From positions 1-64,000 of the forward strand of contig MPMM01000017.1 in the NCBI GenBank assembly GCA_002238505.1: a stretch of DNA of 64,000 bases, read 5' to 3'. This document shows, piece by piece, positions 9,797 to 41,491 of the stretch; position 1 is the first letter of the stretch; every line of letters begins with the position of its first letter. This DNA is from SAR202 cluster bacterium bin22. Its GTDB lineage: Bacteria > Chloroflexota > Dehalococcoidia > Lucifugimonadales > UBA3495. Under the pieces are notes generated by a model. That model saw only the letters and a list, made by a program, of their open reading frames with translations, was not told the origin of the DNA and did no database searches. The position numbers were made by a program, and so were the translations under genes.

Positions 9797-10687
9797 TTAT
9801 GAGGATTCGGGAGAGTTATTTGTCATTTGTATTGAGTCATACTCTTGTCTGCAATGGTCAATAGTCTCCATCACGGCGGACGCCTTGAACACGACCCCCA
9901 AATCTATCATCTCTTCCGTTTTCAATACCGGGCGGATTGCAGAAGGTATTGACTCGAAACTTATTGTGCCATCTGTTTCCCGGTAGAAGGCGCTAGACAG
10001 TATGCCAAGGAAGTAGAGCCTGTTACCGATATGTGACGCCCTTCCGCGATCTGACCACGTCCCGCTGTTATAGAGAAAGACTGGACTTCCGCTACTGCCT
10101 GGGAACACCGAGGCATCAATCAAGAATATCGGTTTCCCTTCGTAATCCACCTCTACTGGCGTCGCGGTCATGCCCCTACGGACTATCGGCAGATTGTTGG
10201 TCTTGTCGTAAATACCGTTTGGATACCCCACGAAAACAACGTCCTCGATTGCATCAAGACCTTCAAGAATCTCGGAGTCTACGAAATCATGGATCGGTAT
10301 CGCAGTGTAGAAGAGAGACACAGGTCCTGCTTGCAAGTGTTCTACACAGCCACCAAATGGCATGACTGTTATGTCTATGTCTTTGGATGGGTGCCCGGAC
10401 CAGCTCCACGCTTGGCCATAAAGAAGGAACTCAGTTCGCTTCTTTAGGTTTGGTATTCTTCGGAGCGTCCCGTGAACCAATTGGGAACCAGACGCTATCA
10501 CAGTCCCCGAGTCTGATCCTTCAACAACGTGTTTATTAGTGACCAAATACGTGCTTGTACTACCGTCTTCTTCCTTTTGGGTCACTAAAAAGCCAGTTCC
10601 TACCGATAAAGGATCCCCTTCAACCGACGACGCTGTGATCTTCAGCGTCGTGAAAAACATCCACTCAGCGTTCGTTTGCACTCTCAT
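9797..10687 (-). CDS. Trypsin-like serine protease
   Basis: A 296-residue cytoplasmic-looking chymotrypsin-fold protease. Catalytic residues are His53 (VTNKHVV), Asp105 in DIDITVM and Ser199 in FPGSSGSPVF, all in order with normal spacing. GTGFLV and VVFVGYPNG are typical S1 strands. ATG 10687 is preferred: it follows GGGG at a good distance and lies four bases after the stop of the upstream gene. There is no signal peptide. As the last gene of a three-gene operon with two helical proteins it resembles proteases used as effectors in bacterial conflict systems; that role is inference. Confidence 0.8.
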   Translation of the reverse strand: MRVQTNAEWMFFTTLKITASSVEGDPLSVGTGFLVTQKEEDGSTSTYLVTNKHVVEGSDSGTVIASGSQLVHGTLRRIPNLKKRTEFLLYGQAWSWSGHPSKDIDITVMPFGGCVEHLQAGPVSLFYTAIPIHDFVDSEILEGLDAIEDVVFVGYPNGIYDKTNNLPIVRRGMTATPVEVDYEGKPIFLIDASVFPGSSGSPVFLYNSGTWSDRGRASHIGNRLYFLGILSSAFYRETDGTISFESIPSAIRPVLKTEEMIDLGVVFKASAVMETIDHCRQEYDSIQMTNNSPESS

Positions 10688-10691
10688 TGAT

Positions 10692-11297
10692 TTACCCCGA
10701 CCTGAAGTATCTTCCAACAATCTCAACCTCCGCCCAAGGAGTCGCGTGTACGACCATGTCGTGTATGGGAGTTTTTCCTTCTTCGATGTTGTCCATCTCC
10801 ACATCCAAGGCTATACCGTAACTTCGTAGCAGTGAGTGCAACAGCTCACACAATAAAAACAAACTTCTGACTTTGTCACCGTTGGCCTCAGGGACCATAA
10901 CAAGGAAGGACGCCGTTGGGTGAGTGAACGGGGCTAATTTCTCATCCCACTGGTCAAAATCTCTGGATATGTTGGATACGTTGCGAATTTTGTGTAGCTC
11001 AGAGTAGATGGCGCCCCACACTAGGGGTCGCAATTGCTCGAATGCGGCCCTCATATCCGGTGCCATGGAGTGAATCGACCATTCATCCACGGCCCACCCA
11101 GTAATGGCAGCGACGTGACAATAGACCTTGCGAAGACGGAGCGAGGAGTCGGACTCGTCCCCGTTTATCTCACTAAGCGGACCGAGCGATTCATCATGGA
11201 TTCCTAGCAATCTGTGGAGCACCTCTAGTTGTCGGTGGCACGCCTCGGTAAGTCGTTGAGCGACCTCGCCCTCGGAGTATTTCAAGCAGTCATTCAT
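10692..11297 (-). CDS. Hypothetical helical protein, protease operon
   Basis: A 201-residue, largely helical soluble protein with no recognised family. Its ATG overlaps the end of the upstream gene by eight bases and its stop is four bases from the protease start, so the three genes are translationally coupled. Leucine-rich helices (RQLEVLHRLLGIH, SLFLLCELLHSLLRSYG) flank a Trp-rich middle. It could be a sensor or adaptor for the protease. Confidence 0.6.
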   Translation of the reverse strand: MNDCLKYSEGEVAQRLTEACHRQLEVLHRLLGIHDESLGPLSEINGDESDSSLRLRKVYCHVAAITGWAVDEWSIHSMAPDMRAAFEQLRPLVWGAIYSELHKIRNVSNISRDFDQWDEKLAPFTHPTASFLVMVPEANGDKVRSLFLLCELLHSLLRSYGIALDVEMDNIEEGKTPIHDMVVHATPWAEVEIVGRYFRSG

Positions 11298-12168: not shown

Positions 12169-12270
12169 GCAGTTCCTTGGGGCCTGCTTCCTAGGGAAAC
12201 TCTGAACAAGTCAGAGAAATTATGGCATAGTAGGGGAAGACAGGCCACACCAGTAGAGGGGTGAATTGGG

Positions 12271-13554
12271 ATGGAGCAACCCACCTTTGCCGACTTGGAA
12301 TACCAGAGGAAGAAGCGCAAGACCCGTCGGGAGTTGTTCCTGGAGCGGATGGACGAGTTGATTCCCTGGCAGAGACTGGAGGACCGGATCCGGCCCTCCA
12401 GGTGGTCGCTGGCGCCCGTTTTGCTGGTTGCGGTCCTGGCAATGGCTTGTGGCGGCGCTTCCGAGGATGAGCCATACCGTATCGGGGTCATGGAGTCCCT
12501 CACCGGGCCGGGCGAGTCCTACGGCACGGTGGCCAACCAGGCCAAGCAGATGGCCGCCGACGAGATCAACGGCGCAGGCGGCGTTGACGGTCGTCCCCTG
12601 GAACTGGTGGTGGAAGACTCGCAATGCAGCGCCCAGGGAGCGGTGGCGGCCTACCGCAAGCTGACCAGCGTGGACGGCGTCCGCATCATCCTGGGCACGT
12701 CCTGCAGCGGCGCCATGCTGGGGGCCGCGCCCCTGGCTGAGGCCGACGGCGTCATCCTCTTTTCCGGGTTGGCCAGCAATCCGGACATCGCCAGGGCCGG
12801 AGACTACATTTTCCGCACCCAGATCAGCGACGTGGAGGTGGGTATCGGCACCGGCAATTTGCTGTGGGACGACGGCGTCCGGAGCCTGGCCACCATCACC
12901 GAGTCCACCGATTATGCCGAGGGAGTGCGTCGGACCACGGTGGAGCAGTTCGAGAAACGGGGCGGGCAGGTGGTGGCCGCCGAACGGTTCTCCTCCGACA
13001 TTACCGACTTCCGTACCCAGCTAAGCAAGCTGATTGCGGCGGAGCCGGGGGCCCTGCACCTGTCGCCGCAATCGGAGTTTGCGGCAGGGACCATTCTCAA
13101 GCAGGCAAGGGAACTGGGGTACGACGGGCCCGTTTACGCCGAGACGGTGTCGGTGGGCACCACCGCCCTGGAGATAGCGGGGGCCGCAGCCGACGGGATG
13201 AAGGCCATAGTTTCGGACCTGGCCCCGGACAACGAGAAGGGCCAGCAGGTGCTGACCAGCTTCCGGGAGCGGTATGACTACGTTACGCTCCCCTGGCACC
13301 TGGGTTCCGCCTACGACAACGTCTATATTGCCGCCGAGTGCCTGAAGCAGACGGGCGACGACCAGGATGCCGACGGTTTCCGGGACTGCCTGTATGGCAT
13401 TAGCTGGAGCGGGGCCATTGGCGACAACTACAGTTTCGACGCCGACGGTGAGGTGGTGGGCCTTTCGCGGGTGGTGGTGCAAATTCTTCCGTCGGGGGAA
13501 CGAAGCCCAGAGCGGAAGTATGAGGTGCTGGGGCCGGCCCCCAGCGCGCCGTGA
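12271..13554 (+). CDS. ABC substrate-binding lipoprotein fused to an IS5 transposase N-terminus
   Basis: Residues 1-41 (MEQPTFADLEYQRKKRKTRR, then ELFLERMDELIPW) are the N-terminus of an IS5-group transposase. From residue 43 the chain is a lipoprotein signal (SRWSLAPVLLVAVLAMAC, lipidated Cys60) and a type 1 periplasmic binding protein of the branched-chain amino-acid/amide family: YRIGVMESLTGPGESYG, a GVRIILGTSCSGAM segment, and the DFRTQLSKL and AYDNVYIAAECL regions. There is no ATG or GTG between the fusion point and the signal sequence, so translation depends on the transposase start. No permease or ATPase genes lie nearby. Confidence 0.8.
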   Translation: MEQPTFADLEYQRKKRKTRRELFLERMDELIPWQRLEDRIRPSRWSLAPVLLVAVLAMACGGASEDEPYRIGVMESLTGPGESYGTVANQAKQMAADEINGAGGVDGRPLELVVEDSQCSAQGAVAAYRKLTSVDGVRIILGTSCSGAMLGAAPLAEADGVILFSGLASNPDIARAGDYIFRTQISDVEVGIGTGNLLWDDGVRSLATITESTDYAEGVRRTTVEQFEKRGGQVVAAERFSSDITDFRTQLSKLIAAEPGALHLSPQSEFAAGTILKQARELGYDGPVYAETVSVGTTALEIAGAAADGMKAIVSDLAPDNEKGQQVLTSFRERYDYVTLPWHLGSAYDNVYIAAECLKQTGDDQDADGFRDCLYGISWSGAIGDNYSFDADGEVVGLSRVVVQILPSGERSPERKYEVLGPAPSAP

Positions 13555-13695: not shown

Positions 13696-13724
13696 GCAGG
13701 GGCGGGTTTCAAACCCGCCCCTGC
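13696..13724. terminator. Perfect 14-bp hairpin
   Basis: GCAGGGGCGGGTTT pairs with its complement around a single central base. It lies between the converging lipoprotein gene and the minus-strand pair at 13776-14773 and could end both transcripts. Confidence 0.6.
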
Positions 13725-29755: not shown

Positions 29756-29992
29756 GCTGGTTCAGCAACACCGCGGCCCCTGGCCCAGGCCGAGGCGCAC
29801 CGAAAGCGTAACCCGTTGGAGGAGGGTGGTCACCCCGATCATTCCGGCATGGCCGCCGTCCCCAATCCAAATGCGAGACATAGACATCATCAGCAAGCGC
29901 GCGACCCATCCGGCAACTTCCAGGCGATGGATGGCGCCGCGCCAGTTTCAACAAAGCTCGACCAACACGCCACGGCGCGAGAGGAACCCAAA

Positions 29993-32900
29993 ATGAGTAA
30001 GACCATGGCATACCTGCGTATTCGCCCAGCCCCCCCCCCCCCGACTTTGGGGCGGAAAATCACGATGTTAGGGGCCAGATTCCTGCCGCCGGCGGTGTTC
30101 CGGGGCGGTGCGCTGGCTCTGGTCGTCGTCGCCGTGGTCATGACGAGTCTGCTGTGGGCCGGCGGCAGTCCGGCCAGCGCGCAGAGCCCCCAAAAACCCG
30201 CCAAGCCCACCGGGCTGAGCGTTACCACCGAGCAGGGCTCGCTTAACGTATCCCTGGACTGGGACGACACCTCCGGCGCAACGAGCTACAAGGTGCGCTG
30301 GCGGGTGGCAGATAAAGGAAATCCACTTAACGCAGGGATAACCCCCACGTCTTCCGACGCCGACATCACCGTCGCCAAATCCGGCGATTGGGTGGTGCGG
30401 GTGGAGGCGTGCAACGCCGCCGGCTGCGGGGATCCCGTGTCGAAGGGGTTCACCACAATAGCCGCGCAGACCACCGTCCCGTCGCCGGCGCCCACCGGGC
30501 TGACGGTGAGCGCGGGGACCAGTTGGGGTGAGCTGGACGCGAGCTGGACGGCGCCCTCCGGGGTGACGGTCACGGACTACGACCTGCGCTACTACGCCGG
30601 GTCTGCGGATCCGACGGACGAGGCGGACTGGGTCGAGGAAGGGGAGTCCCTCGGCCTGCGGAATCCGGGCACATCGACCTCGGCGACTATCGCCCGCCTG
30701 AGGACGGACACCGTCTACCGGGTGCAGGTGCGCGCGGTGAGCGACGCTGGCGAGGGCGCGTGGTCCGACTCGGCCAGCGCCCGAATCGACAGCACGGCGC
30801 CGGTCCTCCGGAACGCCAGGGTGAGCAGAGACGGGACCAAGCTGACGCTCTACTACGACGACCCGCTGGACTCCGGCAGCGCCCCGGCGCACGGACAGTT
30901 CTCGGTCGCCGTCGCTGGCTCGGAGCGGACGCTCTGGAGCGGAGGCGCCGTCACTGTGTCCGGCACCACGGTGACCATGAACCTGGGCAATCCGGCGGTG
31001 ACGGTCGGCCAGACGGTGGCGGTGAGCTACACGGTGCCCGGCACAAAGCCCATCAAGAACCTGAAGGGCATCAAGGCGCCCGCCATCAGCAGCCTGGCGG
31101 CGATCAACGACCGGAAGCCCGACGGAGCTGCGGCGCAGTCGGATCCGGAAAGGCTGGCAATCGTCTCGACACCGTCCAACGGCACGGACACCTACGGAGC
31201 GGGCGGGGAAATCAAGGTCGAGTTCACATTCGACGAGAACGTGACCGTGGACACCGTCGGGGGCAGGCCGCGCCTCAAGATCAAGCTGCACGCGACCGCA
31301 AACAACAGCGAGAGGTGGGCGTCCTACCGGGGCGGCAGCGGCACGGCGGTGCTGACCTTCTCCTACACGGTGAGGAGCTCGGACTCGTCGAAGGGCGGCA
31401 CCCCCGAAACGGACGCCGGCATCGCGGTGCTCGCGAACTCGCTTAACGAGAACGGTGCATGGATCCTCTCGGCGGCGACGGGCCGGTTCATGAACCTGGC
31501 GCATGCCGGCCTTGACCACGATGCGAACCACAAGGTCGACGGGACGCTGGACGGGAGGGCGCCGAGGTTCAAGAGCGCCGCTGTGGACCAGACCACGATG
31601 ATTATCACCTTCGACGAGAATCTCGACACGAGCTCGGCGCCGGCAGCCGGCCGCTTCTGCGTGGACACCACGGACCCGGACGGCTCTGCGAGATCTTTCT
31701 GCGGCGCCAGTGTGTCGATCCACCCGGTCAGCAAGACCCTGGTGACGGTTACGCTGAGTGAAGGTGTCAGGTCCGCCGAGGCGGCGACAGTGAGCTACAC
31801 GCTAGACGCTACGAACCCTCTGAAGGACGCGGCTGGGAACAAGGTGGCGGCCTTCTCGGGCAAGCGGGTGACCAACTACAGCATTGCGCCGGGCCTGCCC
31901 ACCGGGGTGTGGGCGTCGACGCCGACACTGGGCGGCAGCCTGGACGTGAACTGGACGGCGCCGAGCGAGGGGGCCACCCCCACGGGCTACGAGCTGCGCT
32001 ACTACCAGGGAACCGGGGACCCGCCGGCCGGGCGCGAGGCGGACTGGAAAGAGGATGTGGCCGGCCTGCCGGACCCGGGCGCGGCCGCGACCTCGGCGAC
32101 GATCCAGGGACTCCAGGCGAACACGGCCTACCGGGTACAGGTGCGCGCGAAGACCGCCGCTGAGGGCGGCCCCTGGTCGGACTCAGCCAGCGCGACCACC
32201 GGTTCGCCGTCGGCGACGAACAACCCGCCGCGGGTGCTGCGCAACAATGGCGCCGCGACCGGCAACGTGTGCACGGTCGTGAACCGCAACGGTCCGATAA
32301 AAAAGGAAAACTCAATCAATGCGAGTGACGCCCTCGTTTCCTATCCGAATTTGGTGCCGCATGGCCCAAGGACCGCCGACGGGGAATGGCCGATAGAATG
32401 CGTCGGCGGTTCGGTTGTTGGCAGAGTTGCCCCGGATTTCGACGATGTGGACGGCGACAAGCTGATTCTCTCCGTCGAGCCCGCCCCGATGCCGGACAAC
32501 GTGCGAGTGGATCCCGACTTTAACTTCCTGCTCTGGCAGAATAACGAAACGAACCCCAATGACAATGGTCGCCTGTTCTTTCAGGGCCAGTCCGCGTTCA
32601 GGGCAGTGCCGGCACGGGCCGTGCGAGCGAAGGTGACAGCGACGGACCCGCACGGCGCCTCGGTCAGTAACCGTGTGTATTTCATCATAGCGAAAGTCAA
32701 CAACGACGACGGGGCGCCGAGCCTGCCGGAGGTGGATGACCTGGACGCCTCCACGGTGCAGGCGTTCTCGCATGTCCTGCCGGCGGCGACCGGGGGCGAT
32801 GACTTCGCGAAGGCATTGATTTTCGGAGCAGACCCCCAGTACTACTATGCCATAAGCGGGCTGCCGGAGGGGCTGGCGTTCGACCCGGAGACGCGGAGGA

Positions 32901-35900
32901 TCTTCGGCACGCCGAGCGAGACCGGGGAGTTCACCGTCACCTACATCGCCGACGACCCCGACACGGTGGGGAGCGCCTATCTCAACCCCGAGACCCCGAA
33001 CACGAACGCCCTCAACGACACGGCGAGCCGGACCTTCACGATCAACGTGCGGCCCTACATCGGGCTGGTGCGGGTGACCTCGGCGCCGACCCACGACGCC
33101 AACGGCGACGGCAGGAACGACACCTATGGCGAGGGCGACAAGATCGCAATCGACGTGGAGTTCTTCGAGCCGGTCGAGTTCGACCCAGGCACGGGCACCA
33201 CCGAGACGAACACCGTGCAGCTGGCGCCCGTGCGCGTGGGGCGGGACAGCGACACGTCGGCCGGCGACCTGAAGACGGCGGACCTGACCGACGTGTTGAA
33301 CGGCGGCAAGACGCTGCGCTTCCAGTACACGGTACAGAGCGGGGACAACGACCCGGACGGGGTGTCCATCGGCTCGTTCAGCGGCGCCGATGCAGACAAG
33401 ATGCTGGTCCTGAAGGGCACGGCGACCCTCACCGGGCTGGTCTCGAAGGAGGCCACGAGCCTGAAGAGGGCCGACTACCTCGTAAGGAATGCGGTGGACG
33501 AAAAGGGCCTCCCGTTGAGCTACGTCAACGGGTATCTGACCACCGCAGGTCCCAAGCCGACAGCGGCGCATGTGGACGGCGAGACGCTGACGGTGACCTT
33601 CGACGAGGACCTGGCCGCGCTCAGCGCCGCCGACCTCCAGTCGCTGACGTTCCTCTTTGGCGTGCAGGGCGCGAACGGCACCGGCGGCAACCGCAACGCC
33701 TACCAGCACCCCAGCTCGGTCGCTATGCGGACCGACAATCGCACGCTCGAGCTGACGCTGGGCGTGGCGGCCCGCGCGGGCGAGCAGATCACGCTGAGCT
33801 ACAAGCTGAACAACTACCAGGGGCCGATCGAGGACACCGACGGCAACATGGCGCCGGCGTTCGTGCATCTGATGGTGACCAACAACACCGGCGGGGGCGG
33901 GGCGGAAGGAGCAGCGGGAGCGGCAGGAGCGGCAGGAGCGGGAGCGGCAGCGGAATCGGAAGTGACGCTGGTCAGCAATACCGGGCAGAGCCAGTCTAGC
34001 ACCGGCAACTTCACCAACGACCGCGCCCAGGCGTTCACCACCGGCAGTAACACCGGCGGCTACAGGCTGACGAGCGTGGCGGTCCCGTACTCCGGCACGG
34101 CCCCGACAACCGGTGACGACTACGCCATAAGAATTCAGGATTCGACCTCGAGCAACCTGCCGGGCGCGTCCCTGGGCACGCTTGCATACGGTTCGGTGTC
34201 CGGCCAGACGGTCACTTATACCGCATCGGGAAACGGCATCGACCTCGACGCCGGGACGACGTACTGGGTCGTCCTCGACGCGACCCAGCATGCTCCAAGT
34301 GCGTCAATCACTTTTACGGACTCGAACAACGAGGATTCGGGTGCGGCCGACGGGTGGAGCCTCTCGGATACGCACCTTGGCAGGGGTCGGAATTCCAACA
34401 GCTGGACTACTACCAACCAGTCTTCCTGGCAGATCGCCATCCAAGGCACTGCGCTGACGGCCATCAGTGAAGTCTTGCTGGTCAGCAATACCGGGCATTC
34501 CTACAATTCCCAAGGTTTCTTCACGTACGATATTGCCCAGGCGTTCACCACCGGCAGCAATGCCAAGCTGACCAGCGTGAAGGTCCCTTACCCTACGGCT
34601 CCGCCAGCGAGCTCGCACACGATAAGTATTCATCCTTCGAACTCGAGCAACCGGCCGGGCGCGTCCCTGGGCACGCTTTCATACGGTTCGGTGTCCGTCC
34701 AGACGGTCACTTATACCGCATCGGGAAACGGCATCCCTCTCGACGCCGGGACGACGTATTTCGTGGTCCTCGACACGAGTACCCATCCCAATTATAAAAT
34801 CAATTATACGTCCTCGGACAGCGAGGATTCGGGTTCTGCGGAGGGTTGGAGCCTCGGGAACGGGGTCCTCTATAAGTTAACAGCCGACACCTCCTGGAGC
34901 GATGACACCTCCGACAGCTCCTGGCAGATCGCCATCCTAGGCGTTGCGGTACCCCCGGCAGCAGGGCCGCAGCCGCAGTTGGTGAGAGTGGCCGGGACGA
35001 AGCTGAAGATCGCCTTCGACGTGGCCCTCGACGACACCTCTTCGGTGTCCGGGGAGCATTTCGAGGTCAATTATTCGGACCGGGACGGCAATCAGCGCAC
35101 CATCAAGGGCACGGAGGCGGACGTGGCCATCTCGGAGAAGACGGTGACCGTCACGCTGGACGAGGCGGTGCCCCCGAACGTGACGGCGCAGGTCACCTAC
35201 AAGCCGCCGACGCCGCTCTCCCTCAAGGCCGCCGTGGGCACCGGCCGCGTGGCGGGGTTCATGGGGTTCAAGATCGAGAAGGTGTACGACACCTTCGTTC
35301 CGGAGCTGATGCAGGTCGCGGTCGCGCAGACGGGCAAGAACCCGGACGGGTTCCGGGTGGCGCTCTATTACGACGAGGCGCTGGACACGGACACGGCCTC
35401 GGTGCCGGCAACCACGGACTTCGGCGTGACGCTGGACTGGACCAAGGACAATAACACCGGCTCGACCGAGGCGACCCCCAACGCCGTCGCGGTGGAGGGC
35501 AACACGGTGGTGCTGACGGTGGACCTGGCGAAGGCGCCGGCCGAAGAGGCGGTCGACCGGATCTACACGATGGCGGACGTGTCCTACACCAAGGGCACGA
35601 ACCCGATCCGGGACCCGGCGGGCAACGAGGCGGCGGATGTCGACGAGGACGACGTGGCCGTCGAGGCGGCCGGCACGCCGGCGGTGGCCGCCGCGACGGT
35701 GGCGGTGAAGGGCGATGAAGTTAAGCTGGTCGGCAATTCCACGCAGAGCAACAGTGACACTTCCTCGTTCGCCATCGACCGTGCGCAGGCCTTCACCACC
35801 GGCAGTAATGCCGAAGGCTACAAGCTGACGAAATTGCGGATCCGGTACGTTATCGCGCTCCCGACAGCGGCTTCGCACACGATAAGCATTAATGCTTCGA

Positions 35901-38900
35901 ACTCGAGCAACCAGCCGGGCGGCTCCCTGGGCACGCTTTCATACGGTTCGGCGTCCGGCTTCGACGTCATCTACACCGCACCGGGCGACGGCATCGCCCT
36001 CGACGCCGGGACGACGTATTTCGCCGTACTCGAATTCAGTAGTCAAGGTGGTACAGGATTCTACAGGACGACGAATTCGAATGCCGAGGATGCGGGCGCG
36101 GCAGGGTGGACCCTCGCAGACGGCAGTTTTTGGAAGCACATGTCCGCCACAGCGTGGGATGCAGACGTCAAATCCTGGAAGATCGCTCTCCACGGCGCTG
36201 CCCTTAAGCCGGTTCCTGCCACGGTGCTGGTGCCGATCGTTCCAGCGACGCTGGTCGGCAATACCGAGCAGACCGCCGGCTCCTCAGGTGTTCCGTTCGA
36301 CTACGACTATTCCCAGGCGTTCACCACCGGCAGCAACACCGACGGCTACAGGCTGACGAGCGTTACGGTCCCCTACAATACAGCGGCCCCGGCGTCGAGC
36401 TCGCACACGATAAGCATCCATGCCTCGAACGCGAGCGACCGGCCTGACGCGTCCCTGGGGACCCTTGGATACGGTACGGTGTCCGGCCAGACAGTCACCT
36501 ATACCGCATCGGGAAACGGCATCGCTCTCGACGCCGAGACGACGTATTTCGTCCTCCTCGACGTGAGTGGCAGTCCTACTTCTGAAATCAACACGACCTC
36601 GTCGGGTGCCGAGGATGCGGGCGCGAGCGACGGGTGGAGCCTCGCGGACGGGCTACTGTGGAGGGATGCTACCAGCTCCGGCACATGGAGCACGTTCAAC
36701 GACACTTGGCAGATCGCCATCCAGGGCACTGCGGGGACCGCGGGGACGGTGACGCTGGTCGGCAATACCGGGCAGAGCGAGGACAGCAACCGCGACTTCA
36801 GCCTCCATGTCGCCCAGAAGTTCACCACCGGCAGTAAAGCCGGTGGCTACAGGCTGACGAAGGTGTCGATCCCATACACCGGCTCGGCCCCGGTATCGAG
36901 TTCACACAACATAGTCATTCATGCGAGTGATGGGGGTTCTCTAAGCGCTCGCCGCCTGGGCACGCTTTCATACGGTACGGTGTCCGGCACCACGGTCACT
37001 TACACGGCATCGGGCGAGGGCATCGCACTCGCCGCCGGGACGGATTATTTCGTCGCCATCCAGATGCTGTCCGCTCCTACCGGTCCAAAACTTCGGCTAA
37101 CGAATTCGGACAGCGAGGATGCGGGTGCGGCCGACGGATGGAGCATTGACAGTTCGCACCGGACCTGGGCCGGACCGGGCCACATCTGGATCAAGAGCGC
37201 CGGCGTCGTCTGGCAGATCGCCATCCACGGTGGTGGCCTGGTTGCCAACACTCAAATTGAGAAGACTGCTTACGCCCAGGTGGACGGCGCCAGCCTGACG
37301 GTGACCTACGACAAGTCCCTCGATCCGACCAGCCTGCCTGATCCGGACCGGTTCACCCTGCTCGACGAGGACGGTCTTCCGGTCAGCCGCGTCGTCGCCG
37401 TGGCGGTGGCGGGCAAGCAGCTGGTGCTGACCCTGAATGGTGCGGTGTCTCCCTGCGAACCGGCGTTCACGCTGAGCTACAGCTGGAGCGAGACGGAGAA
37501 GAACATCCGCACGTTCACCGGCCACGAGGCACCCGATATCGAGGCGGAGCCGGTGATCAACGCGCAGGCGGACCGGTGCGTGAACGGGCGCGCGGTGGTG
37601 GTGAACGGCGAGGGCGCGTCAGGCAACAGCGGCGGCGGGTCGGGGCAGGGCATGCAGGGCAAGAGCCTGACGCTGAGTTTCGACCGTCCGCTCGACACGG
37701 GCAAGGCGCTGAAGGCCTCGGCCTTCGGCCTGACGGGCGGAGCGCCCCCGGCAGTCAAGGGGGCAGCGTACACCGAGAGCGGCGCCGGGGTCGTGCTGAC
37801 CCTGGCGCGCGGGCTGGAGACCGGCGAGACGGTCACGCTGGGCTACGCCCGGCCCGCGGGCGACCCCGGGCTGTGGGACGCCGAGGGCAACCAGATCGCG
37901 GAATTCTCCGGGGTGGCGGTGCCGGTCCGTACCTCCGGGCCTCCGGCGGTGGCCGGGGTCGAGGTGGTCTCGGACTCAGGCAGCGACGACACCTACGCCC
38001 TGGGCGAGACGATCCGCGTGCGGGTGACCTTCAGCGAGGCGGTGGAGGTCGACACGACGGGCGGCGCGCCGCGCCTCAGGATCGACATGGACCCGGCCAC
38101 GCACTGGGGCATGAAGTGGGCTACCTACACAGGCGGCAGCGGCACGGAGAGCCTGACCTTCTCCCACGAGGTCGTGCAGCCGAACGAATCGACCCAGGGC
38201 ATCGCGGTGCTGGCGGACACGCTGGAGGCGAACGGCGGCGCGATCCGCTCGGCGTCGACGGGCACGGACGCCGGGCTCGGGCATGACGGCCTGGACCACG
38301 ACCCGGCCCACAAGGTCGACTGGCGGCTGGCGCGGGCGGCGAACTTCCCGGCCACGGGCGCTGCTACCATCACGGGCACCGCGCAGGTGGGCGAGACGCT
38401 GACGGCAGATACTTCGGGCATTGCCGACGACGACGGGCTGGACAACGCAGTCTTCGGCTACCAGTGGCTGGCCGACGATGTGGAAATATCCGGGGCCACC
38501 GGTTCAACGTACACCCTGGCCGCCGCTGACGAGGGCAAGGCGGTCAAGGTGAAAGTGTCCTTCACCGACGACGCGGGCAACGACGAGTCCCTGACCAGCG
38601 TGGCAACGGCCGCGGTGGAAGCAGCGCCACCGGAGAACAATGCGGCCACGGGAGCTGCCACCATCACCGGCACAGCGCAGGTGGGCGAAACACTGACGGC
38701 AGATACATCGGGCATTTCCGACGACGACGGGCTGGACAACGCAGTCTTCGGCTACCAGTGGCTGGCCGACGACGCTGACATATCCGGGGCCGCCAGTTCA
38801 ACATACACCCTGGCCACCGCCGACGAGGGCAAGACAGTCAGGGTAAAGGTGTCCTTCACCGACGACGCGGGCAACGACGAGTCCCTGGCCAGCGAGGCCA

Positions 38901-41491
38901 CATCTGCGGTGGCGGCGGCGGCGCTACCGCCTCCCGCGCCGACCAACCTGGTGGCAACGGACAACGGGAACGCCACAGTCACCCTGACCTGGGACGCGCC
39001 GGAGGACGATGGCGTCACCGGTTACCAGGTACTGCGCCGCCGCCCCACCGAGGGCGAGGGGACGCTGCTGGTGTACGTGGCGGACACGGGCAGCACGGAC
39101 ACCACCTGGACCGACGAGGACGTGACCATCGGCGCCCGGCACGTCTACCGGGTGAAGGCCATCAGCGCCGCGGGGTTGAGCGGAGCGTCCAAGTTCGACA
39201 GAGCGACCCCTGCCTCTCCACCGGAGAACAATGCGGCCACGGGCGCTGCCACCATCACCGGCACGGCGCAGGTGGGCGAGACGCTGACGGCAGACACCTC
39301 AGGCATTTCCGACGCCGACGGCCTGGACAATGCCGTCTTCAGCTACCAGTGGCTGGCCGGCGGCGCGGAGATTTCCGGGGCCACCGGTTCGACGTACACC
39401 CTGGCCGACGACGCCGCGGGCAAGGCCGTCATGGTGCGGGTGTCCTTCACCGACGACGCGGGCCACGCGGAGACGCTGACCAGCGCGGCTGCGGTGGCGG
39501 CAGCGCCTTTGACGGTCAGCATTGAGAATGAGGCCACGTCCCACGACGGCTCCGATTCGTTCACCTTTGAGCTCCGGTTCAGCGAGGAGGTCAAGCTGAG
39601 TTACGAGTCCCTCCGTGACCATGTGTTCACGGTGACGGAGGGCACGGTGTTCAAGGCCCAGCGCCTTGACCAGCCCAGCAACATCCGCTGGCAGATCACC
39701 GTGCAGCCCCACTCCAGCGCCGACGTGACAGTGGTCCTGCCGGTCACCACCGACTGCGAAGCTCAGGGGGCCATTTGCACGAAGAATGGCGGGCTACCGC
39801 TATCGAACACGGTTTCGGTGACGGTGCCGGGGCCAGCGGAGAACAGTCCTGCTTCCGGCCAGCCGACCATCACGGGGACGGCCCAGGTGGGCGAAACGCT
39901 GACGGCAGACACCTCGGGCATTTCCGACGCGGACGGCCTGGACAACACGACGTTCAGCTACCAGTGGCTGGCTGACGGCGCGGACATATCCGGGGCCACG
40001 GGTTCGACGTACACCCTGGCCGACGACGACGAGGGCAAGGCCGTCAAGGTAAAAGTGTCCTTCACCGACGACGCGGGCAACGATGAGACTCTTGCCAGCG
40101 CAGCCGTGGCCGTGGCCGCGGGGGCGGCAGCGCCCCTGACGGTCAGCATTGAGAATGAGGCCACGTCCCATGACGGTGCTGATTCGTTCACCTTTGAGCT
40201 CCGGTTCAGCGAGGAGGTCAAGCTGAGTTACGAGTCCCTCCGTGACCATGCGTTCACGGTGACGGAGGGTACGGTGTTCAAGGCCCAGCGCATTGACAAG
40301 CCCAGCAACATCCGCTGGGAGATCACTGTGCAGCCACATTCCAACGCCGACGTGACGGTGGTCCTGCCGGTCACCGCCGACTGCGATGCTCAGGGGGCCA
40401 TTTGCACGAAGACCGGCGGGAGACCGCTGTCGAACACGGTTTCGTTGGCGGTGCCGGGGCCAGCGGAGAACAGTCCTGCCTCCGGCCAGCCGACCATCAC
40501 GGGGACAGCCCAGGTGGGCGAGACGCTCACGGCAGATACCTCGGGCATTTCCGACGCCGACGGGCTGGACAACGCAGTCTTCAGCTACCAGTGGCTGGCT
40601 GACGGCGCGGACATATCCGGGGCCACGGGCAACAGCTACACCCTGGCCGCAGCCGACGAGGGCAGGGCGGTCAAGGTAAAGGTGTCATTCACCGACGACG
40701 CGGGCAACGACGAGACTCTTGCCAGCGCGCCTACGGCTGCGGTGGCGGCAGCGCCGGTGGAGAACAGTCCTGCCGCGGGCGCGCCGATGATCCAGGGCAA
40801 GGCCCGGGTGGGCGAGACGCTGACGGCAAGAACCACGCGCATTTCCGACGGCGACGGCCTGGACAACGCCGTCTTCAGCTACCAGTGGCTGGCCGACGAC
40901 GCGGACATCTCCGGGGCCACCGGTTCAACGTACACCCTGGCCGCCGCTGACGAGAGCAGGGCGGTCAGGGTGCGGGTGTCCTTCACCGACGACGCGGGCA
41001 ACGACGAGTCCGTGACCAGCGAGGCCACATCCACGGTGGCGGCAGCGCTGCCCCCTCCCGCGCCGACCAACCTGGCGGCAACGGACAACGGGAACGGCAC
41101 AGTCACCCTGACCTGGGACGCGCCGGAGGACGATGGCGTAACCGGTTACCAGGTACTGCGCCGCCGCCCCAGCGAGGGCGAGGGGACGCTCCTGGTGTAC
41201 GTGGCGGACACGGGCAGCACGGACACCACCTGGACCGACGGGGACGTGACCATAGGAACCCGGCACGTCTACCGGGTGAAGGCCATCAACGCCGTGGGCC
41301 TGAGCCAGCTGTCAAACCTCGCCAGGGCGACCCCTGCCGCTCCACCGGAGAACAATGCGGCCACGGGCGCCGCCACCATCACGGGCACGGCCCGGGTGGG
41401 CGGGACCCTGACCAGGGTGGTGAGGCGCCAGCGCCCCCGGCGAATAAGCCGGCGAGACCACGGTCGGGCTGAGCTGGGGCAACCCGGATAG
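29993..41491 (+). CDS. Giant secreted modular repeat protein
   Basis: 3,832 residues from ATG 29993 (AGGAA upstream); ATG 30065 is an alternative. The signal sequence is GGALALVVVAVVMTSLLWAG, ending ASAQ. Modules in order: fibronectin III (30195, 30485); SwmB-like (30795, 31558, 33540, 34975, 35305, 37255, 37640); FDENV/DT-x-G-type beta domains (31150, 33060, 37950); fibronectin (31886); a putative-Ig domain (32700-33050); five repeats like choice-of-anchor R (33955-37245); then six and a part ITGTAQVGETLTADTSGI Ig-like repeats, interleaved with fibronectin and two SIENEATSHDG domains. No LPXTG or other anchor remains, and the end is frameshifted near 41420. Probably a surface adhesin or matrix protein. 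Confidence 0.85.
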   Translation: MSKTMAYLRIRPAPPPPTLGRKITMLGARFLPPAVFRGGALALVVVAVVMTSLLWAGGSPASAQSPQKPAKPTGLSVTTEQGSLNVSLDWDDTSGATSYKVRWRVADKGNPLNAGITPTSSDADITVAKSGDWVVRVEACNAAGCGDPVSKGFTTIAAQTTVPSPAPTGLTVSAGTSWGELDASWTAPSGVTVTDYDLRYYAGSADPTDEADWVEEGESLGLRNPGTSTSATIARLRTDTVYRVQVRAVSDAGEGAWSDSASARIDSTAPVLRNARVSRDGTKLTLYYDDPLDSGSAPAHGQFSVAVAGSERTLWSGGAVTVSGTTVTMNLGNPAVTVGQTVAVSYTVPGTKPIKNLKGIKAPAISSLAAINDRKPDGAAAQSDPERLAIVSTPSNGTDTYGAGGEIKVEFTFDENVTVDTVGGRPRLKIKLHATANNSERWASYRGGSGTAVLTFSYTVRSSDSSKGGTPETDAGIAVLANSLNENGAWILSAATGRFMNLAHAGLDHDANHKVDGTLDGRAPRFKSAAVDQTTMIITFDENLDTSSAPAAGRFCVDTTDPDGSARSFCGASVSIHPVSKTLVTVTLSEGVRSAEAATVSYTLDATNPLKDAAGNKVAAFSGKRVTNYSIAPGLPTGVWASTPTLGGSLDVNWTAPSEGATPTGYELRYYQGTGDPPAGREADWKEDVAGLPDPGAAATSATIQGLQANTAYRVQVRAKTAAEGGPWSDSASATTGSPSATNNPPRVLRNNGAATGNVCTVVNRNGPIKKENSINASDALVSYPNLVPHGPRTADGEWPIECVGGSVVGRVAPDFDDVDGDKLILSVEPAPMPDNVRVDPDFNFLLWQNNETNPNDNGRLFFQGQSAFRAVPARAVRAKVTATDPHGASVSNRVYFIIAKVNNDDGAPSLPEVDDLDASTVQAFSHVLPAATGGDDFAKALIFGADPQYYYAISGLPEGLAFDPETRRIFGTPSETGEFTVTYIADDPDTVGSAYLNPETPNTNALNDTASRTFTINVRPYIGLVRVTSAPTHDANGDGRNDTYGEGDKIAIDVEFFEPVEFDPGTGTTETNTVQLAPVRVGRDSDTSAGDLKTADLTDVLNGGKTLRFQYTVQSGDNDPDGVSIGSFSGADADKMLVLKGTATLTGLVSKEATSLKRADYLVRNAVDEKGLPLSYVNGYLTTAGPKPTAAHVDGETLTVTFDEDLAALSAADLQSLTFLFGVQGANGTGGNRNAYQHPSSVAMRTDNRTLELTLGVAARAGEQITLSYKLNNYQGPIEDTDGNMAPAFVHLMVTNNTGGGGAEGAAGAAGAAGAGAAAESEVTLVSNTGQSQSSTGNFTNDRAQAFTTGSNTGGYRLTSVAVPYSGTAPTTGDDYAIRIQDSTSSNLPGASLGTLAYGSVSGQTVTYTASGNGIDLDAGTTYWVVLDATQHAPSASITFTDSNNEDSGAADGWSLSDTHLGRGRNSNSWTTTNQSSWQIAIQGTALTAISEVLLVSNTGHSYNSQGFFTYDIAQAFTTGSNAKLTSVKVPYPTAPPASSHTISIHPSNSSNRPGASLGTLSYGSVSVQTVTYTASGNGIPLDAGTTYFVVLDTSTHPNYKINYTSSDSEDSGSAEGWSLGNGVLYKLTADTSWSDDTSDSSWQIAILGVAVPPAAGPQPQLVRVAGTKLKIAFDVALDDTSSVSGEHFEVNYSDRDGNQRTIKGTEADVAISEKTVTVTLDEAVPPNVTAQVTYKPPTPLSLKAAVGTGRVAGFMGFKIEKVYDTFVPELMQVAVAQTGKNPDGFRVALYYDEALDTDTASVPATTDFGVTLDWTKDNNTGSTEATPNAVAVEGNTVVLTVDLAKAPAEEAVDRIYTMADVSYTKGTNPIRDPAGNEAADVDEDDVAVEAAGTPAVAAATVAVKGDEVKLVGNSTQSNSDTSSFAIDRAQAFTTGSNAEGYKLTKLRIRYVIALPTAASHTISINASNSSNQPGGSLGTLSYGSASGFDVIYTAPGDGIALDAGTTYFAVLEFSSQGGTGFYRTTNSNAEDAGAAGWTLADGSFWKHMSATAWDADVKSWKIALHGAALKPVPATVLVPIVPATLVGNTEQTAGSSGVPFDYDYSQAFTTGSNTDGYRLTSVTVPYNTAAPASSSHTISIHASNASDRPDASLGTLGYGTVSGQTVTYTASGNGIALDAETTYFVLLDVSGSPTSEINTTSSGAEDAGASDGWSLADGLLWRDATSSGTWSTFNDTWQIAIQGTAGTAGTVTLVGNTGQSEDSNRDFSLHVAQKFTTGSKAGGYRLTKVSIPYTGSAPVSSSHNIVIHASDGGSLSARRLGTLSYGTVSGTTVTYTASGEGIALAAGTDYFVAIQMLSAPTGPKLRLTNSDSEDAGAADGWSIDSSHRTWAGPGHIWIKSAGVVWQIAIHGGGLVANTQIEKTAYAQVDGASLTVTYDKSLDPTSLPDPDRFTLLDEDGLPVSRVVAVAVAGKQLVLTLNGAVSPCEPAFTLSYSWSETEKNIRTFTGHEAPDIEAEPVINAQADRCVNGRAVVVNGEGASGNSGGGSGQGMQGKSLTLSFDRPLDTGKALKASAFGLTGGAPPAVKGAAYTESGAGVVLTLARGLETGETVTLGYARPAGDPGLWDAEGNQIAEFSGVAVPVRTSGPPAVAGVEVVSDSGSDDTYALGETIRVRVTFSEAVEVDTTGGAPRLRIDMDPATHWGMKWATYTGGSGTESLTFSHEVVQPNESTQGIAVLADTLEANGGAIRSASTGTDAGLGHDGLDHDPAHKVDWRLARAANFPATGAATITGTAQVGETLTADTSGIADDDGLDNAVFGYQWLADDVEISGATGSTYTLAAADEGKAVKVKVSFTDDAGNDESLTSVATAAVEAAPPENNAATGAATITGTAQVGETLTADTSGISDDDGLDNAVFGYQWLADDADISGAASSTYTLATADEGKTVRVKVSFTDDAGNDESLASEATSAVAAAALPPPAPTNLVATDNGNATVTLTWDAPEDDGVTGYQVLRRRPTEGEGTLLVYVADTGSTDTTWTDEDVTIGARHVYRVKAISAAGLSGASKFDRATPASPPENNAATGAATITGTAQVGETLTADTSGISDADGLDNAVFSYQWLAGGAEISGATGSTYTLADDAAGKAVMVRVSFTDDAGHAETLTSAAAVAAAPLTVSIENEATSHDGSDSFTFELRFSEEVKLSYESLRDHVFTVTEGTVFKAQRLDQPSNIRWQITVQPHSSADVTVVLPVTTDCEAQGAICTKNGGLPLSNTVSVTVPGPAENSPASGQPTITGTAQVGETLTADTSGISDADGLDNTTFSYQWLADGADISGATGSTYTLADDDEGKAVKVKVSFTDDAGNDETLASAAVAVAAGAAAPLTVSIENEATSHDGADSFTFELRFSEEVKLSYESLRDHAFTVTEGTVFKAQRIDKPSNIRWEITVQPHSNADVTVVLPVTADCDAQGAICTKTGGRPLSNTVSLAVPGPAENSPASGQPTITGTAQVGETLTADTSGISDADGLDNAVFSYQWLADGADISGATGNSYTLAAADEGRAVKVKVSFTDDAGNDETLASAPTAAVAAAPVENSPAAGAPMIQGKARVGETLTARTTRISDGDGLDNAVFSYQWLADDADISGATGSTYTLAAADESRAVRVRVSFTDDAGNDESVTSEATSTVAAALPPPAPTNLAATDNGNGTVTLTWDAPEDDGVTGYQVLRRRPSEGEGTLLVYVADTGSTDTTWTDGDVTIGTRHVYRVKAINAVGLSQLSNLARATPAAPPENNAATGAATITGTARVGGTLTRVVRRQRPRRISRRDHGRAELGQPG
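30030..30042 (+). repeat. C13 homopolymer in the 5' part of the giant gene
   Basis: Thirteen cytosines encode part of APPPP between the ATG at 29993 and the signal sequence. Slippage would switch translation from that ATG on or off. ATG 30065 lies downstream, with GGGGCGG nearby, and would bypass it. Confidence 0.75.
33955..37245 (+). repeat. Five ~165-residue choice-of-anchor-like repeats
   Basis: Units begin near 33955, 34465, 35715, 36240 and 36748. Each has LVxNTxQS, RAQAFTTGSN, SLGTLxYGxVSG, VTYTASGNGI, AxTTYFVVLD, a NSEDAGAADGWSL block, and ends WQIAIxG. Units 3 and 4 are separated from unit 2 by SwmB-like domains. Confidence 0.75.
38345..41415 (+). repeat. Ig-like ~90-residue repeats with 0.6-kb tandem duplication
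   Basis: Repeats at about 38345, 38641, 39226, 39838, 40450, 40756 and a partial one at 41344. The block 39508-40130 (SIENEATSHDG domain plus Ig unit) is repeated almost exactly at 40135-40745, and the fibronectin unit at 38930-39225 recurs at 41050-41340. High DNA identity suggests recent duplication. Confidence 0.8.

Follow-up and report, generated by a model that had tools for sequence, protein, structure and literature searches.

The gene blaNDM-1 is possibly chimeric; a passage in one article gives its first six residues as matching those of aphA6, which is likewise flanked by ISAba125 (PMC8894482, citing Toleman 2012). Co-transcription from transposase genes into neighbouring genes has been reported for a few elements, including ISFtu2, an IS5-family insertion sequence (IS) of Francisella (PMC9330008). 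For fusions of a transposase N-terminus, no direct precedent was found in the literature searched, which was a limited collection. The locus described here lies in a window of 64,000 nucleotides (the whole stretch of DNA that was analysed, contig MPMM01000017.1) from SAR202 cluster bacterium bin22, an uncultured Chloroflexota bacterium whose genome is a draft of 58 contigs. Judged from its sequence, the segment at 12192-13554 of the window joins, in frame, the left terminus of an IS5-family element to a start-less substrate-binding lipoprotein gene. A single uninterrupted open reading frame of 427 amino acids (12271-13554, forward strand) spans the IS-derived and the lipoprotein-derived parts, with no stop codon between them. 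The IS homology ends at 12390/12391 and the match to the substrate-binding gene begins at about 12410, with 85% DNA identity to a related genome (G004). The first-pass annotation had recognized this in-frame fusion of an IS5-group transposase start to a lipoprotein and had placed it at 12271-12460; the site was right, but the true extent is the wider one given above.

All parts of the fused gene lie on the forward strand. The left terminal inverted repeat, TAGGGAAACTCTGAACAAGTC, occupies 12192-12212 and shows 0-2 substitutions against both ends of longer copies of the element. It is followed by the IS 5′ leader (12213-12270), with a GAGGGG ribosome site some 9 nt ahead of the ATG, and by the first ~40 codons of an IS5-family transposase, MEQPTFADLEYQ...LEDRI (12271-12391), as delimited by alignment to the IS copies. 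The earlier count was 41 transposase-derived codons; residues 41-43 are ambiguous. Longer copies on contigs C8, C50 and C37 of the same genome are 87%, 83% and 80% identical, respectively, to 12192-12390/12391 (BLAST, E-values 5e-63 to 1e-39). These copies are about 1.2 kb long, carry terminal repeats beginning with TAGGGATACTCTGAACAAG at both ends and encode transposases of 316-327 amino acids; the C8 transposase matches the NCBIfam model NF033581 ("IS5 family transposase") with 330 bits against a cut-off of 140. Both marks of a truncated IS5-family copy, a terminal repeat and a recognized transposase N-terminus, were found at the window locus. A functional element would show both ends and a DDE domain; here, no right terminal repeat was found anywhere in the window at up to five mismatches, only the left end of the element remains, and homology stops at 12391. 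The idea of a passenger gene inside a complete IS was rejected, as the window is without a right terminal repeat. In the intact transposase, DUF772 begins at residue 50 and DDE_Tnp_1 at residue 136, and the fused ~40 residues precede both; a donated DNA-binding domain was rejected on the grounds that the fused part stops before DUF772.

Over the first 40 codons, the fused IS part differs from the C8 copy in 14 codons (five amino-acid changes) and C8 differs from C50 in 12 (two amino-acid changes), counts which are compatible with relaxed constraint on the fused part and too small to tell. In the C37 copy (locus L006, ~2512-2545), a short insertion right after transposase codon 5 disrupts the usual ATG frame, and the ORF finder begins the frame at a GTG farther upstream. 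G004 has a further truncated copy of this IS (C372:20000-20212, locus L173), with transposase codons 1-71; the match stops near the end of the locus, and the truncation may be merely a contig end.

What remains of the lipoprotein signal lies at 12392-12450, as delimited from the sequence and from the leaders of relatives. Arginines just 5′ of the core are followed by the hydrophobic core SLAPVLLVAVLAM and the lipobox AMA-C60; the core and lipobox expected before the cysteine of a lipoprotein are thus both present (VLLVAVLAMA-C60), and the small residue preceding the cysteine is common to the relatives. The mature LIV-type substrate-binding protein (Peripla_BP_6) extends from 12451 to 13554 and is intact to the stop codon. 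It matches essentially the full model PF13458 (positions 1-333 of 343) at 8.9e-51, its score of 174 bits exceeding the curated cut-off of 31.7, and the PDB structures related to it are those of leucine- and LIV-binding proteins (4gnr, 3hut and 1usg). For comparison of leaders, 68 related loci were used, in each of which the best start was chosen by codon and Shine-Dalgarno energy. The cysteine of the fused gene is residue 60 when counted from Met1 and residue 34 from Met27, and that of the relatives has a median position of 25, with 57 as the longest. Plausible leaders in the nearest species have 28-57 residues, and other plausible leaders in the genus reach 41-57. The added n-region contains 12 K/R and 9 D/E and has a mildly positive net charge, and three arginines stand directly before the hydrophobic core.

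The ribosome site before the ATG at 12271 forms a Shine-Dalgarno duplex of -8.1 kcal/mol, which ranks within roughly the best 5% of positions drawn at random from the window. It was evident from the alignment of the IS 5′ leader with the C8, C37 and C50 copies that the IS donated this ribosome site and start codon, as had been claimed. The accompanying claim of a donated promoter is unproven; a scan found no sigma-70-like promoter, which is weak evidence in a phylum that has been little studied. Between the junction and Cys60, no ATG, GTG or TTG is far enough upstream for a workable leader, and hence the lipoprotein has lost its own start. The statement that there is no other usable start is, however, true for the lipoprotein-derived part only: within the IS part, an in-frame ATG (Met27, 12349-12351) has a GGAG upstream, with a duplex of -6.4 kcal/mol that falls within roughly the best 10%, and would give a 34-residue leader. 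Other in-frame starts in the IS part are TTG codons at 12334 and 12358, the latter (codon 30) giving a leader of 31 residues. The locus thus has the two properties of a chimeric gene of the blaNDM-1 type, a start donated by another gene and a lost native start.

The transposase N-terminus was absent from all of the ~80 relatives examined, so that orthologues do not share it. A native N-terminus common to the orthologues was considered and rejected, the low query starts of some tblastn matches (e.g., L087, 1-424) being spurious extensions over unrelated leaders. In three genomes of other species of the genus (G001, G003 and G004) and on contig C33 of the host itself, a Bax-inhibitor-like gene (PF01027, an assignment tested on the G004 copy) is followed by a binding-protein gene with its own leader. 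The host therefore contains an intact resident copy at C33, which the first-pass annotation had overlooked, and the window gene is a second copy. In a tree of the mature region, the window copy (labelled C43) groups with G004 with a support of 96 for DNA and 99 for protein, and the resident copy pairs with G003 with a support of 100. Recent duplication of the resident gene was rejected, as the window copy clusters with G004 and not with C33; since the tree places it there, the window copy is probably an extra, horizontally acquired gene, or else an old paralog. Genes for a LIV-type permease are found in the same genome at C40 and beside a 66%-identical paralog at C53. In four other genomes, open frames of ~800-850 codons (G005:C3, G020:C7, G030:C21 and G034:C1) each contain two tandem matches to the binding protein, which suggests that the family includes a fused double substrate-binding protein.

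The region around the fusion looks like an accessory, IS-rich stretch. Genes nearby encode an IS21-type helper ATPase (IstB, 750-1280), a second IS5-family transposase (NF033580, 8993-9739) and a trypsin-like protease (9797-10804). Farther away, at 29816-41491, there is an open reading frame of 3891 codons with repeated domains, fibronectin-type and Ig-like by eye. The DNA flanking the fused gene on both sides was not found in 38 related genomes, except for weak short matches and a dispersed short palindrome, GCAGGGGCGGGTTTCAAACCCGCCCCTGC, located 3′ of the gene at 13696-13724. The 21-bp core of this palindrome has 29 forward and 30 reverse matches in the genome (≤1 mismatch), as against 0 for a reversed control, and it recurs widely on both strands in related genomes, as a dispersed repeat or a terminator-like element. 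Another, near-perfect palindrome of 26 bp (12/13 pairs, 12376-12401) spans the fusion junction. An equally good one did not arise in any of 2000 dinucleotide shuffles of the surrounding 110 bp (12341-12450), and the entire window contains three sites as good; the palindrome may record the manner of end joining.

On balance, and somewhat better than evenly, the evidence argues for a chimeric gene that is expressed from the IS signals and whose product is still lipidated and serves as an orphan binding lipoprotein. The promoter scan counts against this explanation, as does a 60-residue leader which exceeds that of every relative examined. That unrelated stretches were instead misjoined during assembly, near 12391-12405, is most unlikely. 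It is true that the genome is a draft and that the junction is in no other record: the only DNA match covering both parts of the fusion is the window itself, no second genome or viral contig carries the junction, and a plasmid search gave only IS5-family transposases in Marinobacter, limited to the IS part. However, there is no near-identical copy through which a repeat could have been misjoined, the nearest IS being 87% identical and the nearest binding protein 84% at the protein level, and the frame is preserved across the join. It is also doubtful that the locus is a dead remnant, i.e., a promoterless, horizontally acquired fragment that fell in frame with a scrap of IS by chance and is not meaningfully expressed. 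Such a fate would suit an orphan gene copy in a region that is strain-specific and contains ISs, with flanks absent from relatives and no detected promoter motif, in a genome where an intact copy resides at C33. Against this, the 427-codon frame is intact and its constraint equals that of G004. By simple substitution counts, 38 synonymous and 9 non-synonymous changes are unique to the window copy, compared with 33 and 9 for G004, and a separate omega for the window branch (0.040 vs 0.036) did not improve the fit (lnL gain 0.04); a likelihood with omega fixed at 1 on this branch looked poorly optimised and was left out. The body has thus evolved like a working protein, under normal purifying constraint. 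This argument is limited and is no proof of function after the fusion, because a share of the branch, perhaps much of it, predates that event.

It is similarly improbable that the fusion is expressed and the internal signal fails, leaving the binding protein in the cytoplasm or anchored in the membrane without lipidation. The position of the cysteine, at residue 60 against the median of 25, and the highly charged n-region would speak for such a failure, and it had been suggested earlier that an internal signal peptide might block export. Export is not obviously blocked, however: the hydrophobic core, the arginines next to it and the lipobox all remain intact, and constraint on the body is normal. 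The earlier idea stays speculation. In addition, ATG27 would yield an ordinary leader, and leaders almost as long as the full one are plausible in the nearest species. Length alone is no barrier to export, since long Sec signal sequences occur in autotransporters (PMC2805444). A further proposal, that the two in-frame starts give two forms, a long one that is retained or anchored and an exported lipoprotein from Met27, so that capture of the IS created dual localisation, has very little probability.

In the favoured explanation, that of an expressed and lipidated chimera, an IS5-family element would have resided at 12192 in strain-specific DNA. The gene copy, similar to the one in a different species of the genus, probably arrived horizontally, as the tree indicates. 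Illegitimate recombination or a deletion would then have linked transposase codon ~40 in frame to the start-less lipoprotein gene, and the same joining event may have taken away the remainder of the IS together with the native start. The order of these events is conjectural, because the flanks are absent from relatives and there is no empty site to compare. Translation most likely starts at the transposase ATG at 12271, with ATG27 as a possible second or back-up start. The product probably follows the Sec/lipoprotein pathway despite its longer n-region; this is the simplest reading, as the core, the arginines beside it and the lipobox are undamaged and the IS part contributes neither a complete DNA-binding domain nor a complete catalytic one. 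It may then act as an orphan binding lipoprotein, perhaps together with a LIV-type permease encoded elsewhere in the genome.

The fusion leaves knowledge of transport or transposition unchanged. It is a well-delimited case in which an IS supplies a ribosome site, a start codon and ~40 residues to a foreign, start-less gene, and it bears on whether the 5′ ends of transposase genes rescue horizontally acquired genes. The resident copy and close relatives allow a comparison of how an N-terminal extension is tolerated by a lipoprotein signal. With the LIV-type lipoproteins, the fused gene shares the whole mature domain and the lipobox; it differs in having a replaced leader and in standing neither in the Bax-inhibitor-like context nor next to a permease gene. 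As for ISFtu2, IS expression signals may drive an adjacent gene, but the effect there is transcriptional only, whereas here the promoter is putative and coding sequence is fused as well. The likeness to blaNDM-1, as far as the cited passage describes that gene, is that, in an IS-flanked setting, an exported protein has had its native start replaced, at the signal peptide, by a foreign start and first codons. By the same passage, six residues from a resistance gene are involved there, whereas here the transposase itself has contributed ~40, which make the n-region longer. By analogy, the mechanism would resemble the known gene rewiring of the blaNDM-1/aphA6 chimera, to which this locus would add a longer, transposase-derived coding extension.
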